Assembly (NCBI GenBank): GCA_022509065.1
Contig: JAFLTY010000025.1
Span: 1 to 34,319, forward strand
Direction: 5' to 3'
Origin: Muribaculaceae bacterium
GTDB lineage: Bacteria > Bacteroidota > Bacteroidia > Bacteroidales > Muribaculaceae
DNA: 34,319 nucleotides
Under the pieces are notes generated by a model that was not told the origin of the DNA, made no database searches, and saw only the letters and a program-made list of their open reading frames with translations. Shown here piece after piece: positions 24,529-30,099 of the stretch. The number at the start of each line of letters is the position of its first letter. Positions within the stretch are counted from its first letter, which is position 1. The position numbers and the translations under genes are program-made.

Positions 24529-26688
24529 TTAAAGCCATGACCACCAGTTGTCGCACGATTTGCGGATTGTGGCTGCGGTTGGTGTGTCGGGGTAACGTTT
24601 TATTACTGTTTTCACGTTGCCGAAGATATATTCGGCTATTGCTTTGGCCTCATCGGTGACAAGCATGGCCATACCTTTCTCTACCTCTTCATCGAAAATA
24701 CGTTGAGTATTTTGATAGTCTTCGTAGGAAGAATAGTCATAGAGGAAGTCGTATTTGTCAAAACCGTCCGTGGGCCAGATATAGTAAAGGTGCGGGTAAA
24801 AGAGGTTACAATTCTCACCTCGCCAATACTGGGTGAGAGCCCAACAGTTCTCATAAGAGTTCCAGCGACCGATGGCATACATAATGCGGGCTAATCCGCG
24901 CTCGTCGGCGGTTTTTCCGTATATCATGGCTGTCTTGTATTGTTGCATGCGTTTGGCAAAGTTGTATTTTGCGTTGTCGGGCGATTCGTAATACTGTTGG
25001 GGTGATGTAAAATCAAACTTATATTTGGTTGGGACGATGTCATCCGAGGGAAATTCCCACAGGCATGGATGATAGTAGAAAGGATCTTTTTTGAGGTAGT
25101 CGTAGATGTTGGTGGTTTGTTGATAATGGACAGGAACCTTTTCAAGGTATTTCATGGCGAGGGAATAGTTCTCTTCGCGCAAAGCGAGGGTGCCAATAAG
25201 TTCGTCAAAATAAGGCTCGTCGGTTCGCGCGTATTTACGCAAGATGGTGTATAGAGGAGTGTTGGCTTTCAGTTCTCTTTGCACCTTGATGAGCTGTGAC
25301 GCGGTCAGGGTGTTCATCAGTTGGAAAGACAGGGAACCGTAGTCGATAAAGTTAGATGCTTTCTTTACACTGCGCACCTCGTCCAGCGAAAGATGCTCAA
25401 AAAAACTTGGATCAGGCAAATTCGGGTCGTAGGAAAACCACCCGGTGTTAAAATATTGGGATGAACGGAGAAAATTTTCTACGTATCCGCACAAAAGAAT
25501 GGCTGTTGTGTATTGTCGTTTTTCCCATAATGTCGGTATCCAGTTTTCGTAGACAATATTTTGAAGGCGGCGAGACCATTTATCAGCATCAGGGTTGAGT
25601 AGATCCATTTTTTTCTCAAACCATTGTAAATCCCTTACCAGATGAGACATGTTCCCGTTGATGGCGTCTATTTTGGTTTGATAGGCACGCGCAAGTTCAA
25701 GGGTATATGGGTCGGAGAATTTTGATTGCATTGCGCGGCGAATATGCTTGGCGGCAGCCTTATAGTCTTTATGATATTTCCCTTTCATATAAGCCAAGGC
25801 GTACTCCCATTCACCGCGACATTTCACATTTTTATTGTTAAGAATCTGTTCGACAGCTGGTTGAAGTCTACAGAAGATAAGCGAGTCCTTGGAGCAATAC
25901 CGGACGTAGTCCCACAACAGAGGGCTATCGGGGTATCTATCCGCAATATGTTGAAAAGCGTTGGGAGACGAAGTTTCCCAAAAATAGCCGGCTCTTATAT
26001 ATAGCTCGTCCGCTTTTTCTTTCTCTCCGAGTCGTTCCCAGCAGCCGGCGACGTACTTCATGGACATGCGTTTGAAAAGATTCGTGTCCGGGAAGTTGAC
26101 AAAATACTCATCGAAAAATTTGATGCATTTGTCGTAATTCCTGTTGGCGAAATGTGCGCGAACTGCCTGAAGACCGTAGCGGTCTTTCAGCCTTGCACCC
26201 CTGTATGATTTACACCAGTTAAAGACATATTGGAAGTTGTTGTCGCTATTGTCGTAGTTGTATTTTTCAGGATAGTACCACGGTGAAGCGATAGTCTTGC
26301 GGTGATTCTCAAGTCTTTTTGCCAGAAGCAGGAAGTCTTTTATCTCATCATCGCGTTTGTTAAGGATATAAGTGTAAAAAAGATTGTCGGTCGGTATGCC
26401 CGGCCATTCAAGAATGGAATAAACTTTATCAAGAGAGTTAGTGTATACGGCTTCTTCAATATCTGACAAAGGGATATCCGGCGATGTCAGTTGTTGCCAC
26501 AAGAGGAGGTTCTCTTCCCTATCGTAATCGCGTTCAGGAAAAACTCGGTCGAACGATGATGGAGTGAAGAAATCGGGCGTTGGAATCAACGGCCGGAACG
26601 GCCCACACGCTTTAGAGGTGCAAGGAGTGAGAAAGAAAGAGAAGAGAAAGCTAATCGCGGCGATTGAGGATACTGTAGATTTGCCCAT
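24529..26688 (-). CDS. Large exported repeat protein, unknown function
   Basis: 719 aa. The N-terminus (GKSTVSSIAAISFLFSFFLTPCTSKA) is a signal peptide; CGPF follows the likely cut site near residue 27, but there is no good lipobox. The rest is alpha-helical with TPR-like units: NRNYDKCIKFFDEYFVNFPD, LGEKEKADELYIRAGYFW, DYKAAAKHIRRAMQSKFSDPYTLELARAY, REENYSLAMKYLEKVPVHY. It is rich in Tyr, Trp and Asp. I do not recognise a named family; similar large exported proteins beginning ACGP/ACGW occur in Bacteroidetes. It overlaps the upstream lipoprotein gene by 38 bp, so the two are one operon and likely act together in the periplasm or at the outer membrane. It may be a scaffold; no enzyme motif is visible. 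Confidence 0.75.
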   Translation of the reverse strand: MGKSTVSSIAAISFLFSFFLTPCTSKACGPFRPLIPTPDFFTPSSFDRVFPERDYDREENLLLWQQLTSPDIPLSDIEEAVYTNSLDKVYSILEWPGIPTDNLFYTYILNKRDDEIKDFLLLAKRLENHRKTIASPWYYPEKYNYDNSDNNFQYVFNWCKSYRGARLKDRYGLQAVRAHFANRNYDKCIKFFDEYFVNFPDTNLFKRMSMKYVAGCWERLGEKEKADELYIRAGYFWETSSPNAFQHIADRYPDSPLLWDYVRYCSKDSLIFCRLQPAVEQILNNKNVKCRGEWEYALAYMKGKYHKDYKAAAKHIRRAMQSKFSDPYTLELARAYQTKIDAINGNMSHLVRDLQWFEKKMDLLNPDADKWSRRLQNIVYENWIPTLWEKRQYTTAILLCGYVENFLRSSQYFNTGWFSYDPNLPDPSFFEHLSLDEVRSVKKASNFIDYGSLSFQLMNTLTASQLIKVQRELKANTPLYTILRKYARTDEPYFDELIGTLALREENYSLAMKYLEKVPVHYQQTTNIYDYLKKDPFYYHPCLWEFPSDDIVPTKYKFDFTSPQQYYESPDNAKYNFAKRMQQYKTAMIYGKTADERGLARIMYAIGRWNSYENCWALTQYWRGENCNLFYPHLYYIWPTDGFDKYDFLYDYSSYEDYQNTQRIFDEEVEKGMAMLVTDEAKAIAEYIFGNVKTVIKRYPDTPTAATIRKSCDNWWSWL

Positions 26689-27721
26689 TGGTGTATGTTG
26701 AGAAGTTGTTTAAGTCAAAATGGTAAAGAATGTTGCTGTGAGGTTCCGATCCAAGAATTTGTTCAATCTTATCTTGAATGGAGCGGATATCGTCGATTGA
26801 TGAGTTTTCTTGTCGAATCATGTCACCTTTGTAAATCAAGGTGTTGTTGTAGGGAACGGTCTTTTTAGCGATATAGACGGAGTTGTCCTTTTTTGTGAAA
26901 CACTCTTCATCGCTCAAATCAACACCATTCATGAGACCGACAAATGTGCGGTCGCGGAAAAGAAGTTGCCAAGAATAAGTCGGGTAGGCGATGTCAAGAT
27001 GTAAGGGGTAAGAGGCAAGGTGTCTGAGGTATGGAGCGACGTTTTTTTCGCTGATTATGGAGTTTGGTTCGTCAGGGTCGTTGAATTTGCCGGTGTTATA
27101 GACCATGAGGACACCGTAATCAACAGGCGGCGGAGAGGAACTCAACTGATGAAGTCGGATGGTCGAGCTCAGATTCCATGGAAGATTATATCTGCCAAAC
27201 TGAGCTTTCACCGAATCGCACAAGGCGAAAAACGATTTACGCGTAGACGGTGTCCAGTCGCAGTCAAGTTGCAAGCCTTCCACATTGGGTATCTCGTTAT
27301 ATGACACCATGTTTTTTACTCGTTCAACAATTCTCGAGGCAAGTATACCCTCTTTACCACGGGATTCTCTAATTGCTTCCAGCGTGATATATACCACTGG
27401 AACAAAAACGGTTGTGGCCAACTTTTCTTCCATGAGATATCGCGGATGGCTGCCAAAAGACAATGTAGCGTTAGGTATGACCCGGTAATCATAGTCGTTG
27501 GTCATGTTATCGACCGACACATCGAACATGCGCAGAAAGATTTTTTTGATGCTGAATTTCTTCAAGAAATCAAGATCTGCCGAATCGGGCTCGAAGGTTG
27601 TTTTCCAGAAATAAACGGAGTTGGCTTCGGTATGGCGATCGTCCGTGCTTTTGTTTGTATGACAACAGATTAGTGAGAATGTCGTCAAGAGGGCTGTAAG
27701 TATTACGGTGAGCTTTTTCAT
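26651..27721 (-). CDS. Lipoprotein, possible TIM-barrel glycosidase-like
   Basis: 356 aa from ATG 27721. MKKLTVILTALLTTFSLICCH is a signal peptide with a lipoprotein-like LICC end, and a polar linker follows. Segments look like alternating strands and helices of a TIM barrel: VYFWKTTFEPDSADLDFLKKF, KIFLRMFDV, TTVFVPVVYI, VEGLQLDCDWTPSTRKSFFALCDSV, GVLMVYNTGKFN, HLDIAYPTYSW. The GLQLDCDW strand end and the overall order remind me of DUF3142/glycoside-hydrolase-like barrels, but this is a weak call. An upstream extension to 27748 lies before the -7 box and is rejected. First gene of an operon with the repeat protein; two 21-bp-spaced repeats matching those before the LytTR gene lie upstream. 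Confidence 0.7.
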   Translation of the reverse strand: MKKLTVILTALLTTFSLICCHTNKSTDDRHTEANSVYFWKTTFEPDSADLDFLKKFSIKKIFLRMFDVSVDNMTNDYDYRVIPNATLSFGSHPRYLMEEKLATTVFVPVVYITLEAIRESRGKEGILASRIVERVKNMVSYNEIPNVEGLQLDCDWTPSTRKSFFALCDSVKAQFGRYNLPWNLSSTIRLHQLSSSPPPVDYGVLMVYNTGKFNDPDEPNSIISEKNVAPYLRHLASYPLHLDIAYPTYSWQLLFRDRTFVGLMNGVDLSDEECFTKKDNSVYIAKKTVPYNNTLIYKGDMIRQENSSIDDIRSIQDKIEQILGSEPHSNILYHFDLNNFSTYTNGQIYSILNRRD

Positions 27722-27725
27722 ACCG

Positions 27726-27756
27726 CAAAGATGTGAGAAAAAAAACACCCAACCAA
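27726..27756 (-). promoter_or_regulatory. Weak promoter of the lipoprotein operon
   Basis: Minus strand: TTGG (27756-27753), 19 bp, CATCTTTG (27733-27726), each one mismatch from TTTG / TAnnTTTG. Only 4 nt separate the box from the ATG at 27721. Weak core elements plus upstream repeats suggest an activated promoter. Confidence 0.5.
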
Positions 27757-27773
27757 GTGTTTTGGCGGGTGTT
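27738..27773 (-). terminator. Intrinsic terminator of the LytTR operon
   Basis: Minus strand: AACACCC (27773-27767) pairs with GGGTGTT (27750-27744), with an inner CCAA/TTGG pairing, followed by eight T (27745-27738). It ends transcripts coming from the glycosidase-like gene and overlaps both the -33 region of the next operon and the proximal direct repeat. Confidence 0.85.
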
Positions 27774-27803
27774 GTATGAAATATGGGGTAGGTTGTACGA
27801 AAT
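27771..27803 (-). promoter_or_regulatory. Direct-repeat pair A, candidate LytTR site
   Basis: On the + strand GTTGTATGAAAT (27771-27782) and GTTGTACGAAAT (27792-27803) differ at one base and start 21 bp apart. LytTR-domain proteins typically bind paired short direct repeats spaced by two helical turns. The TGTA core lies 40 bp upstream of the -7 box of the lipoprotein operon, exactly as in pair B before the LytTR gene. Confidence 0.6.
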
Positions 27804-27849
27804 GAGGGTACAGGTCAAAAACGATAAAACTTCAAGTAGGTTCTTAAAA

Positions 27850-27861
27850 CCGGTTCGACAA
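27850..27861 (+). repeat. Isolated match to the end of the IS5-like element
   Basis: CCGGTTCGACAA is identical to 12 bp in the terminal repeats of the element at 14276-15020. It also follows a CTTAAAA stretch, like the flank there. No second end or transposase is visible nearby. It could be a solo relic of the same element, or chance. Confidence 0.3.
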
Positions 27862-27886
27862 CTATCATGGATTGTATAATCGTTTC

Positions 27887-28798
27887 TTATTTCCAGACTA
27901 AATAATTTACATTGGCGAAATTATTATCTGTCTCGCGGCCGAACTCCAATTTATTGCCTTCTTCATCGACGGCAAAACCATGTGATGTAGACCCAACAAG
28001 ATAGATGGCGTTAGACACGCCCAGGTCGGCCAGCACGTCGGCAAACTCGTTGAGTGTCATCTTCCTGTGACCCAAGATGACAACTATGTCGCCGTTTAAT
28101 TCGGCCAGTGCCTTACGCAATGAAGCCGATTTCAGTTTGTTTTCCACAACCTGACCACCTACCACCAAAGGATATTGTCGAAAAAAGTAACCGCCGTTTT
28201 CAATTGCCTGTTCAAAATAGGGTGTTGAGTCGGCGACGCCAACAGTCATTTTGCCGTTAATTATGGCGCAGAATCCCGATTTAGAGGAGCCACGGCTCAC
28301 CAATTCACCATCGATGACACAAGCTCCTACAATACCACCATTGTCACGGCGTACGTCGGCGGCTTGAACCACAAGTGTGGCTGTGGTGTCTTTAAGAGCG
28401 TCAGCGCCAATTTGTAAGCGAGGTGTAGCGTTTTGCGGTTTAAGTATGGTTAGAGCACAGTCGTTGATAACGGTATCGGTGAAAATAGTATGTGAAATAA
28501 TAGGTACTTCCTGTAGAGGCGGTATGCTGTCGTGATTTTTATTTGTATCGTAAGCTAACCTTGAAACGCGGTTTGTCATAAAGTTATCCGAGTCTATGTC
28601 GGCGTTTGATACCGGCCATACCAAATAAACAATCAAACCGATTAATAATAAAACGAAAAAAACAAGACAAAATGTGACGATTTGTCTTATGCGGCGCCTC
28701 CTCTTGAGATACTTCGCCCTGCCGATATCGAGAGATTTGGCTTCGGAGCCAATTATGCGGATTTCGTCGTCGTTGATATCGTGGAACATATTATTCAT
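27887..28798 (-). CDS. Membrane-anchored phosphodiester-glycosidase-like protein
   Basis: 303 aa. Cytoplasmic N-terminus with a basic patch (KYLKRRRRIRQ), then one membrane helix at about 40-62 (VTFCLVFFVLLLIGLIVYLVW) and a large periplasmic domain. That domain resembles the NAGPA/DUF2233 phosphodiester glycosidase family: QAADVRRDNGGIVGACVIDGELV, GFCAIINGKMTVGVAD, QYPLVVGGQVV, a region before DIVVILGHRKMTLNEFADVLADLGVSNAIYLVG, and a Ser-rich turn where the family usually has D-G-G-x-S. The canonical NGG/DGG motifs are partly changed (ENGGYFF kept, LVGSTSHG in place of the last), so activity is uncertain. It overlaps the LytTR gene by 8 bp. Periplasmic cell-wall or glycan work is inferred. 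Confidence 0.72.
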   Translation of the reverse strand: MNNMFHDINDDEIRIIGSEAKSLDIGRAKYLKRRRRIRQIVTFCLVFFVLLLIGLIVYLVWPVSNADIDSDNFMTNRVSRLAYDTNKNHDSIPPLQEVPIISHTIFTDTVINDCALTILKPQNATPRLQIGADALKDTTATLVVQAADVRRDNGGIVGACVIDGELVSRGSSKSGFCAIINGKMTVGVADSTPYFEQAIENGGYFFRQYPLVVGGQVVENKLKSASLRKALAELNGDIVVILGHRKMTLNEFADVLADLGVSNAIYLVGSTSHGFAVDEEGNKLEFGRETDNNFANVNYLVWK

Positions 28799-29162
28799 TT
28801 GTGAACCTCCTTTTTTCTATATATTCTTTCAGAGTCTTCAACGCCTCTTTCGATGCTGAAAGCTCATAACGAAAAGTGCTTCCGTCGGACAAAATGATTT
28901 TTTGTTTGGCCGGGTTTATATATGATATGAAATCGTTATTGACAATGAGGCTTTTACCGATTCGTATAAAACTATTAGCCTCAAGTCCGGGCGTTTCGGC
29001 TATAAGATTCTCTACGTGTCCTAACTGTAAGGTCTGGATATACTCTGTGCCATTCACAAGCTTGAAAGTGGAGTAATTGCCGCCGGCGGCAACATAAACC
29101 AACGCTTTCGGGCTTATCCGGATCAGCTCGGATGCTGTGCTAAAAATGAGTAAATTGTCCAT
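28791..29162 (-). CDS. Stand-alone LytTR DNA-binding protein
   Basis: 123 aa consisting almost only of a LytTR domain (about 15-118): RISPKALVYVAAGGNYSTFKLVNG, TLQLGHVENLIAE, FIRIGKSLIVNNDFISYINPAKQKIILSDGSTFRYELSASKEALKTL. The RIGKS-LIVN segment is the signature DNA-contact region. No receiver, sensor or membrane segment is present, so it cannot be a classical two-component regulator; it may respond to the membrane protein encoded next to it (8-bp overlap, ATGAATAA). Its own promoter carries a direct-repeat pair (29216-29248) shared with the neighbouring lipoprotein operon, suggesting autoregulation. Confidence 0.92.
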   Translation of the reverse strand: MDNLLIFSTASELIRISPKALVYVAAGGNYSTFKLVNGTEYIQTLQLGHVENLIAETPGLEANSFIRIGKSLIVNNDFISYINPAKQKIILSDGSTFRYELSASKEALKTLKEYIEKRRFTNE

Positions 29163-29170
29163 ATACGATG

Positions 29171-29178
29171 CAAAAATA
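29171..29178 (-). promoter_or_regulatory. -7 box TATTTTTG of the LytTR operon
   Basis: Exact -7 match on the minus strand, 8 nt before the ATG at 29162, so a nearly leaderless mRNA. The -33 position reads AAGG, a poor match, which fits an activator-dependent promoter. Confidence 0.6.
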
Positions 29179-29215
29179 CAATTTTTCAGACATATAACCT
29201 TCCTCCTACCTCTTT

Positions 29216-29248
29216 TATGTACGAAATGTTTGTCCGGTTGTACAAGTT
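29216..29248 (-). promoter_or_regulatory. Direct-repeat pair B, candidate LytTR site
   Basis: On the + strand TATGTACGAAAT (29216-29227) and GTTGTACAAGTT (29237-29248), TGTAC cores 21 bp apart. The first shares the 11-mer TGTACGAAATG with pair A (27794-27804), and the second shares GGTTGTAC. The proximal TGTA lies 40 bp upstream of the -7 box, identical to pair A. Confidence 0.6.
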
Positions 29249-29343: not shown

Positions 29344-30099
29344 GTGAAAGAGATAAAGGCAAACGAAATGCGCCGTCGCGTATTTGTGACCGGAGGCGCA
29401 CATGGTATTGGAAAAAGTATAGTGGAAGGTTTTATCAGCCGGGGTGACTTGGTGGCTTTTTGTGATATAGATAGTGACAACGGGACGAAGTTGTCCAAAA
29501 ATACCGGTGCCGTCTACCATGAGGTAGATGTAACTGATGCAGGAAAGCTCGAAGAGTGCATAGGCAGTGTTTTCGAGGCGTGGGGAGATATTGATGTGCT
29601 GATCAATAACATCGGTATAGGTGTTTTTAAGCCTTTGACAGAGTTGACGTTGGCTGAGTTTGACCGCGTCATCGACACTAATTTGCGTTCTGTTTTTGTG
29701 ACGGCGCGAATGTTGGCGCGCCATAGACAGGCGAACGGCAATAATGGCTATGGCCGCATTGTCAATCTGTGTTCCACACGCTATTTGCAAAGCGAGGCCG
29801 GAACGGAAGCGTATTCAGCTTCGAAAGGCGGAGTTTATTCGATGACACACTCGCTCGCCATGTCATTGGCTCCTATGGGTGTGACGGTGAACGCAATTGC
29901 TCCGGGATGGATTCACGTTCGTGAAGAGGAGGATTTAAGAGCCATTGACCACGAGTTTCACCCCTCGCGTCGTGTTGGCACTCCCGACGATGTGGCGCGG
30001 CTTGCTTTGTTTCTTTGTGAACCCGAAAATAACTTTATTAATGGTCAGACTCTGGTTGTGGACGGCGGAGCTACCATTAAGATGATATACCCGGAATAA
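29344..30099 (+). CDS. Short-chain dehydrogenase/reductase
   Basis: 251 aa, classical SDR with an NAD(P)-binding Rossmann fold. The TGGAHGIG cofactor loop follows the first strand. DIDSD at the end of strand 2 suggests NAD preference. The structural motif is NNIGIG. The catalytic triad is Ser in NLCSTRYL with Tyr and Lys in AYSASKGG, and APGW is the turn after strand 6. The C-terminal INGQTLVVDGG closes the fold. The substrate is unknown. GTG 29344 follows a -7 box by 23 nt; ATG 29368 (MRRRVFVTGG) is an equally sound start and eight residues shorter. It is transcribed divergently from the LytTR operon and is monocistronic. Confidence 0.92.
   Translation: MKEIKANEMRRRVFVTGGAHGIGKSIVEGFISRGDLVAFCDIDSDNGTKLSKNTGAVYHEVDVTDAGKLEECIGSVFEAWGDIDVLINNIGIGVFKPLTELTLAEFDRVIDTNLRSVFVTARMLARHRQANGNNGYGRIVNLCSTRYLQSEAGTEAYSASKGGVYSMTHSLAMSLAPMGVTVNAIAPGWIHVREEEDLRAIDHEFHPSRRVGTPDDVARLALFLCEPENNFINGQTLVVDGGATIKMIYPE

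Follow-up and report, generated by a model that had tools for sequence, protein, structure and literature searches.

LytTR DNA-binding proteins act at paired direct repeats, and the sites described in passages of two papers consist of repeats of 9-11 nt with spacers of 11-13 nt (PMC4847170, PMC6193735). The closest described arrangement is that of the LytTR regulatory systems (LRS) of Streptococcus mutans (HdrRM, BrsRM and others). According to the passages of PMC6193735, these consist of a LytTR-only regulator encoded first and a membrane inhibitor encoded second, without a kinase; upstream of the promoter they have operators made up of 9-bp direct repeats, in most cases separated by a 12-bp spacer, and the regulators that use such repeats activate transcription. 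In 2018 only the LRS of S. mutans had been characterised, as the authors' abstract states, and in the passages of that paper Bacteroidetes appear only with another, 'LRS-like' operon type. Here, we describe a related arrangement in a 34,319-nt stretch of DNA (the window) on contig JAFLTY010000025.1 of a Muribaculaceae bacterium with a genome of 2.28 Mb. The window carries two adjacent minus-strand operons: one encodes a LytTR-only protein and a protein with a phosphodiester glycosidase (NAGPA) domain, and the other, located downstream, encodes a lipoprotein and a repeat protein. A pair of direct repeats precedes each operon, pair A the lipoprotein operon and pair B the LytTR operon (Table 1). 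We assign a probability of about 85% to the reading in which the LytTR-only protein acts at A and B as its operators, activates both operons without a kinase and most likely receives its input from the NAGPA-domain protein.

As in the S. mutans LRS described in PMC6193735, a gene for a soluble LytTR protein comes first and is directly followed by a gene for a membrane protein, no kinase is present among the neighbours examined, and 9-bp direct repeats with a 12-bp spacer lie upstream of the promoter, with putative autoregulation and other targets. The partner is different: four of the five S. mutans partners described there carry DUF3021 or DUF2154, whereas the partner here apparently crosses the membrane once and has a NAGPA domain as well as a conserved tail. 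NAGPA was its only Pfam family, and neither DUF3021 nor DUF2154 was detected. Further, the repeat is TTTCRTACA here versus sequences such as ACCACTTAT there, and the autoregulatory site is optional here, whereas the lipoprotein site is near-universal where gene and LytTR co-occur. Given the different partner domain and repeat, the optional autoregulatory site and the merely putative inhibition, the system is filed as LRS-like and not as an LRS.

The 'LRS-like' operons of Bacteroides thetaiotaomicron and B. ovatus (Btheta7330_RS19915/RS19920), as presented in passages of PMC6193735, are likewise from Bacteroidales and combine a LytTR protein with direct repeats, which lie before a -7 box of the TATCTTTG type placed 19 bp from a -33-like box. 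Unlike here, several membrane segments are part of their LytTR protein, the first gene is that of the membrane protein, which carries NfeD and DUF2154 domains, and 11-bp repeats with the sequence TCCGGTATTCA are separated by an 11-bp spacer. As a lead only, the site of E. coli YpdB at yhjX, given in passages of PMC4847170, is a direct repeat, GGCATTTCAT, with a core resembling ATTTCRTAC; YpdB is a response regulator with the kinase YpdA, unlike the LytTR-only protein described here. The partner has the Pfam family and fold of NAGPA/DUF2233 proteins (PF09992; BACOVA_00430, PDB 3ohg), from which it differs by a membrane helix and a conserved tail ahead of the domain. No description of a LytTR-NAGPA system was found in the open-access literature, a scope outside which most subscription journals lie.

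The sequence-only reading of this DNA had claimed that A and B each contain two direct repeats 21 bp apart, have identical operator-to-box geometry, share an 11-mer, and are followed by genes starting 4-8 nt past the -7 box. All of this was borne out on the gene strand, where the first 9-mer of A, TTTCGTACA, recurs as the second of B, the start-to-start distance is 21 bp in both pairs, and the proximal repeat starts exactly 48 bp before the -7 box in both. The common 11-mer, TGTACGAAATG, occurs three times in the genome, twice in the A/B region (reversed control, 1); its third exact copy (G000:C2:10594, L001) was taken as chance, having no composite match of at least 18. Other claims stood in part. 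The distal half of B is weak (6/9), and the statement that both -33 boxes are poor applies to B, which has none, and not to A, which has TTGG where relatives tend toward TTTG. The ATGs lie 4 and 8 nt past the -7 boxes (27719-27733 and 29160-29178), and both mRNAs are, because of these short distances, probably leaderless or nearly so. Lipoprotein genes of many relatives begin farther from the -7 box than in the window.

Table 1. Features of the two operons, their operators and promoters in the window.
Feature	Position	Strand	Evidence or remark
Operator A: distal TTTCGTACA (27802-27794), 12-bp spacer, proximal TTTCATACA (27781-27773)	27773..27802	-	
-7 box A, CATCTTTG; ATG 4 nt downstream	27726..27733	-	5/6 fixed letters
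Operator B: distal ACTTGTACA (6/9), 12-bp spacer, proximal TTTCGTACA	29218..29247	-	
-7 box B, TATTTTTG; ATG 8 nt downstream	29171..29178	-	6/6 fixed letters
LytTR-only DNA-binding protein, 123 aa	28791..29162	-	Pfam PF04397
NAGPA-domain (phosphodiester glycosidase) protein, 303 aa	27887..28798	-	Pfam PF09992, E 4.5e-8; fold match
Conserved tail DINDDEIRII (residues 7-16 of NAGPA-domain protein), codons	28751..28780	-	Orthologue conservation
Lipoprotein, 356 aa, GH18-like barrel fold	26651..27721	-	Fold match; invariant motif in 29 sequences
Secreted repeat protein, 719 aa, 38-bp overlap with lipoprotein gene	24529..26688	-	Neighbour in 7/9 genus loci
Intrinsic terminator of LytTR-glycosidase operon: hairpin 27744-27773, T run (8 T) 27736-27743	27736..27773	-	

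Repeats and box were combined into the composite pattern TTTCRTACA-N12-TTTCRTACA-N39-TAnnTTTG (two 9-mers plus box, maximum score 24). A (23/24) and B (21/24) were the top matches in the window and the third-ranked match scored 18, while a reversed-sequence control gave nothing at 18 or above; in 773 kb of reversed sequence there were 0 matches at 20 or above. In the whole genome, A is the single occurrence of the mismatch-free pair pattern. With up to three mismatches, 41 pairs were found versus 40 in the reversed control, so that a weak pair in another part of this genome cannot be told from a chance match. When 20 of these 41 places were rescored with the -7 box, none except A and B scored above 18, and no further regulon member is therefore claimed in this genome.

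Within the genus (49 genomes, that of the window included), a LytTR protein at least 53% identical to that of the window was present in ten genomes (window counted), and the NAGPA gene was present in exactly those ten. Pair A was kept in all ten, directly 3' of the NAGPA stop codon, with a spacing of 21 bp in eight and of 20 bp in two. Matches to the pair pattern with at most one mismatch at spacing 21 were found in 8/10 LytTR-positive genomes versus 3/39 others (reversed control, 2 matches); that of G018 sits away from pair A, which has a spacing of 20 in this genome. Lipoprotein and repeat-protein genes lie downstream in 7 of the 9 same-genus orthologous loci. In G016 and G018 the lipoprotein gene is missing at this locus and the pair is retained, the gene downstream belonging to a BLAST cluster represented in the Pfam scan by L148, which is classed as an alpha-2-macroglobulin. 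In G016 an additional site lies upstream of a gene with a VWA domain; here, too, a hairpin follows, and the -7 box is at offset 49. A perfect pair on G018:C20 (L073) lies between gene ends without a -7 box at 48, and is probably a chance match or a dead site.

Named GTDB genomes were scanned with a NAGPA profile, and the best 80 of 254 relatives were taken as named loci. These come from Muribaculaceae, Barnesiella, Parabacteroides, Alistipes, Paludibacteraceae, Bacteroides, Prevotella, other Bacteroidales and a few metagenome-assembled genomes labelled Clostridium. A LytTR gene stands directly upstream of the NAGPA gene in 77/80 loci (the remaining three are cut by contig ends), and pairs spaced by 21 bp dominate. 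Pairs of at least 16/18 with a spacing of 18-24 bp numbered 97 on the coding strand versus 6 on the opposite strand; with the spacing left free from 15 to 30 bp, 85 coding-strand pairs had 21 bp, nine had 20 bp, and no other spacing had more than three. A lack of conservation of the repeats upstream of orthologous operons would have spoken against the sequence-only reading; instead, they were kept in the ten genus genomes and in 46 of 50 lipoprotein upstream regions. The latter reached at least 21/24, a score found in 0 of 5000 dinucleotide shuffles (likewise 0 at 20 or above), and 28 of 75 LytTR upstream regions (window included) reached 19/24, compared with a fraction of 0.0001 of 7500 shuffles; the shuffle test skipped 6/81 LytTR and 31/81 lipoprotein loci that had no match or short upstream DNA. 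Four lipoprotein rows had no match. In L164 and L188 the pair lies more than 300 bp upstream, and in L180 a pair precedes another lipoprotein gene; in the lipoprotein upstream region of L185, which was wrongly cut in the shuffle test, no pair was found. Further, the operator accompanies the lipoprotein operon where this is sited elsewhere, in eight loci (L151, L158, L168-L170, L174, L189 and L194).

The distance to the promoter is also rigid. Sites of the window, genus, named and family loci were pooled after selection on the repeats alone (16/18, spacings 20 and 21 only), giving 130 sites, of which 114 are distinct. The -7 box (5 or 6 of 6 letters), which was not a selection criterion, lies at offset 47-49 in 100 of these 114 and at any offset from 50 to 99 in at most four. 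An alignment of 82 sites, selected on repeats and box and thus informative in the spacer, -33 and flank columns only, showed 0.03-0.5 bit per base in the 12-bp spacer, with the exception of the A at its end (1.0 bit); it also showed, 19 bp before the -7 box, a -33 element resembling TTTG. A search of 393 genomes of the order with the 30-bp pattern alone, blind to genes, returned 18 sites in 15 genomes versus 5 sites in 3 genomes in the control. In the regions fetched around them, the box was at 47-49 in 15 of 19 scored sites, and four sites preceded a lipoprotein homologue and four a LytTR homologue.

Operator and regulator were also compared for co-occurrence. The lipoprotein family was found in 116 of 397 family genomes (six with two matches), many of them without this LytTR. 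One hundred lipoprotein upstream regions were read, with an operator called at 20/24 or above, a LytTR orthologue at 130 bits or above, and 'none listed' referring to E 1e-20. The operator preceded the lipoprotein gene in 33/36 regions from genomes with a LytTR orthologue, in 1/4 with an intermediate match, in 1/11 with a distant paralogue and in 2/49 with none listed. The intermediate positive is the copy of G340 located on the LytTR contig; the second copy, on another contig, has no operator. Operator and regulator were lost together within genera: LytTR-positive versus LytTR-negative genomes carried the operator in 8/8 versus 0/2 (g1), 5/5 versus 0/2 (g8) and 6/8 versus 0/3 (g30) cases, in a table limited to chosen genera and leaving out g17. 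The exact pair was present in 27/59 LytTR-positive versus 3/338 other family genomes. Left out of the 100 regions were eight same-genus genomes, all of which have the operator, G177, G231, G252, G304 and G384, and, as contig-cut or short, G024, G112, G356, G359, G376 and the second pieces of G324 and G357; G321 was counted as lacking the operator from the 205 bp available.

The sequence-only reading, an envelope regulon under LytTR control, is thus supported, the operator following the presence of LytTR; pair B, the putative autoregulatory site, is kept in a minority of relatives, and the regulon is, as judged from its predicted sites, larger in some lineages. In the mechanism we propose, two LytTR monomers would bind the two direct repeats (TTTCRTACA) from the same side of the DNA, at a distance of 21 bp or two turns. 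Bound 39 bp upstream of the Bacteroidales -7 box, they would recruit RNA polymerase to a promoter with a weak or absent -33 element. The result at A would be expression of the envelope operon with the GH18-like lipoprotein and the repeat protein, and at B positive feedback on the LytTR-NAGPA operon.

Several observations weigh against this interpretation. Binding and activation are predictions, and contact between the tail of the NAGPA-domain protein and LytTR is conjectural. Most relatives have only a weak pair B or none: 47/75 LytTR upstream regions score below 19/24, and within the genus the composite score is 21 in the window, only 20 in G018 (both repeats 7/9), 19 in G023 (distal half 4/9) and 18 in G016, in which the repeats are good but the -7 box is at 60. 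Octamers resembling TAnnTTTG also rise at offsets 20-21 (10 and 28 of 114 sites) and 37-39 (19, 4 and 8), rises that are ascribed to the TTTG-rich -33 and terminator stretch. G079, a 99% complete genome, has a perfect operator before its lipoprotein gene and no LytTR match even at E 0.001, and G150 (89% complete) and G237 (87%) carry the operator without a LytTR orthologue, whereas G103 and G357 have LytTR yet a lipoprotein gene without the operator. Genera against the trend are g15 (1/1 without LytTR), g6 (1/1), g5 (1/2) and g14 (0/1 with LytTR). Since the species are related, the co-occurrence p-values overstate independence, though the three within-genus contrasts agree in direction. One site, moreover, precedes a gene for an aromatic amino acid lyase, an enzyme out of place in an envelope regulon. 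The operator of G079 lies at G079:C29:20166-20195 (L236, L363) and is accompanied by a -7 box.

LytTR could instead repress at these operators, or activate at some sites and repress at others. The sign of regulation cannot be read from sequence and the -7 boxes are near consensus, but the sites stop 16 bp short of the -33 position on its upstream side, leaving the promoter core free, and at B the -33 box is absent, both of which are expected where a promoter is activated. The S. mutans LytTR regulators with such repeats activate, according to the passages of PMC6193735; we consider repression unlikely. Less likely again is that a different regulator binds the repeats and that LytTR and operator are co-inherited for other reasons. 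The genomes G079, G150 and G237 would be explained in this way, as would G218 and G374, which have exact pairs and only distant LytTR paralogues. It is at odds, however, with the joint absence of operator and orthologue within g1, g8 and g30, with the presence of the operator before the LytTR gene itself in 28/75 loci, and with the architecture of two repeats of about 9 nt and a 12-nt spacer, which is that described for LytTR proteins in the passages cited above.

A hairpin of -15.3 kcal/mol (z -4.76), not mentioned in the sequence-only reading, is nested between pair A and its -7 box. It is interpreted as marking where the LytTR-NAGPA operon ends, compressed into the promoter region of the following operon, and not as part of the operator. 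Pair A closely follows the stop codon of the NAGPA gene and, in 9 of 10 genus loci, adjoins a strong hairpin, as would also be seen if it were an RNA element that either belonged to the 3' end and terminator of the NAGPA mRNA or attenuated the lipoprotein operon. This was rejected as very improbable: in the eight loci in which the lipoprotein operon is away from NAGPA, pair and -7 distance persist, although six have no strong hairpin and the hairpins of the other two (L168 and L189) have no T run. The fixed 21-bp spacing, moreover, fits the helical phase of DNA. Hairpins of -9 kcal/mol or stronger follow the operator at 36/53 lipoprotein sites and 16/40 other sites but at only 2/21 LytTR sites; at 11 further lipoprotein sites a strong hairpin is also missing. 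A sigma-70-style promoter and terminator scan was uninformative, the promoter type being different, and did not list the bulged hairpin at 27744-27773. Finally, a chance likeness of two AT-rich upstream regions would agree with the count of loose pairs in this genome, which equals its control within one, but the window scan, the shuffles and the reversed control speak against it and the orthologues have already refuted it; its probability is negligible.

The LytTR domain of the 123-aa protein was identified with E 3.8e-8 and 33.9 bits (cut-off 22.6); it was the only family in a Pfam scan of this protein, which revealed no receiver domain. A Pfam scan of the five neighbouring proteins alone, two of which have no Pfam family, revealed no kinase. 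The input is probably the co-encoded membrane protein, a role not proposed in the sequence-only reading. This protein comprises a short tail, one membrane helix, a variable linker and the NAGPA domain; in the structure model a helix spanning residues 25-60 includes the hydrophobic stretch read as the membrane segment, and the domain fold matched NAGPA structures with E 2.6e-9 (6pky) and 4.3e-8 (3ohg, BACOVA_00430). The tail is predicted to be cytoplasmic because an Arg/Lys-rich stretch precedes the helix. Its residues I8, E12, I13, R14 and I16 are invariant in the ten genus orthologues, in which most of the 80 residues after the tail (linker and membrane region) show little or no consensus. 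The tail motif is present in 75 of 81 proteins, the six misses being three variants (DQIR or NDIR), two cut sequences and one wrong frame. On the DNA level, the tail pattern gave eight matches in the genus, seven of them inside NAGPA genes (7 of 10 such genes), compared with one in the reversed control. One of the tail alignments was selected with the tail motif, and its invariant tail is thus no evidence, unlike the counts for the ten genus orthologues, the 81 proteins and the DNA pattern.

A peptide conserved on the inner side of the membrane calls for a partner in the cytoplasm, and the co-encoded LytTR protein is the obvious candidate. That the tail holds or releases LytTR, with the sugar-phosphodiester-type domain outside, is a proposal to which we give slightly less than even odds. 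The NAGPA domain is phosphodiester-glycosidase-like, with catalysis only predicted; what we take to be the family's DGG-type motif is replaced by VGS or VGG in most of these proteins. The NAGPA profile had no match among PDB sequences at 0.01. Those of the LytTR profile were only designed beta-propellers ('Pizza') with summed weak repeat scores and were taken as spurious. More tentatively still, the locus may represent a Bacteroidales-wide transmembrane module in which the NAGPA-like domain senses or cleaves an amino-sugar-phosphate compound of the envelope and the tail signals to a free LytTR activator. If so, its targets would be the GH18-like lipoprotein, the repeat protein and, in some lineages, an alpha-2-macroglobulin. 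Such a module would be of a hitherto undescribed kind, its regulon responding to envelope stress or sensing self-glycans with neither a kinase nor a sigma factor nor a second messenger.

The operator-regulator set would in itself constitute a second LytTR architecture, widespread among gut commensals, in which the operator is defined, the promoter geometry fixed and the core regulon small, and in which the candidate membrane partner, with its conserved tail, is amenable to testing. It would supply a clean activator-dependent Bacteroidales promoter in the form of the composite pattern, and the function of two conserved, nameless envelope proteins becomes directly testable. The lipoprotein matched the GH18 barrel fold, and its residues Q151, D153, C154, D155, W156 and T157 are invariant in 29 sequences. 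What we take to be the GH18 motif, DxxDxDxE, laid on by eye, reads LQLDCDWT, with Thr at the presumed position of the catalytic Glu, and the protein is possibly an inactive or altered glycosidase. Its profile gave weak matches only among PDB sequences, and Pfam assigned no family to more than two of the 29 lipoproteins (E up to 1), including DUF3142 in 1/29 at E 0.0023, which was not used.

The genes following the 130 pooled sites were grouped by BLAST into 63 lipoprotein genes, 23 LytTR genes, a cluster of 11, and single genes or small groups, with six sites lacking an open reading frame; the cluster of 11 includes nine alpha-2-macroglobulin-like rows from seven genomes. Counted as distinct sites, 53 precede a lipoprotein gene, 21 a LytTR gene and 40 other genes or none. 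Among 19 other downstream genes scanned with Pfam were alpha-2-macroglobulin, TPR, VWA and WG-repeat proteins, many had no family, and a few were not envelope-like (aromatic amino acid lyase, RhuM, AAA/DUF4143). In seven loci without the lipoprotein gene (L148:5957-10867, L122 (=L052), L134 (=L056), L144, L153, L173 and L200) the operator precedes a gene for a protein of about 1450-1680 aa of the L148 BLAST group. At L179:7783, L179:9348 and L184:3275 there are three further, similar pairs with good -7 boxes, which the regulon may have acquired later; those of L179 precede an AAA/DUF4143 gene and a RhuM-family gene, and that of L184 lies at a contig end.

In the window, a short-chain dehydrogenase gene (29344-30099, plus strand) is divergent from the LytTR gene, and the 181-bp intergenic region contains pair B; a match to the dehydrogenase was absent from the stretches fetched around nine genus LytTR orthologues. 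The sites of L264, L268 and L272 have no good -7 box; that of L264 (G534:C34:14473-14523) consists of three tandem repeats at 21-bp steps with no box at 48. One contig carries the identical 30-bp operator twice, 25 kb apart (G264:C33:35994 and 60643; L230 and L231), each with a -7 box at 48 and with different small genes downstream.

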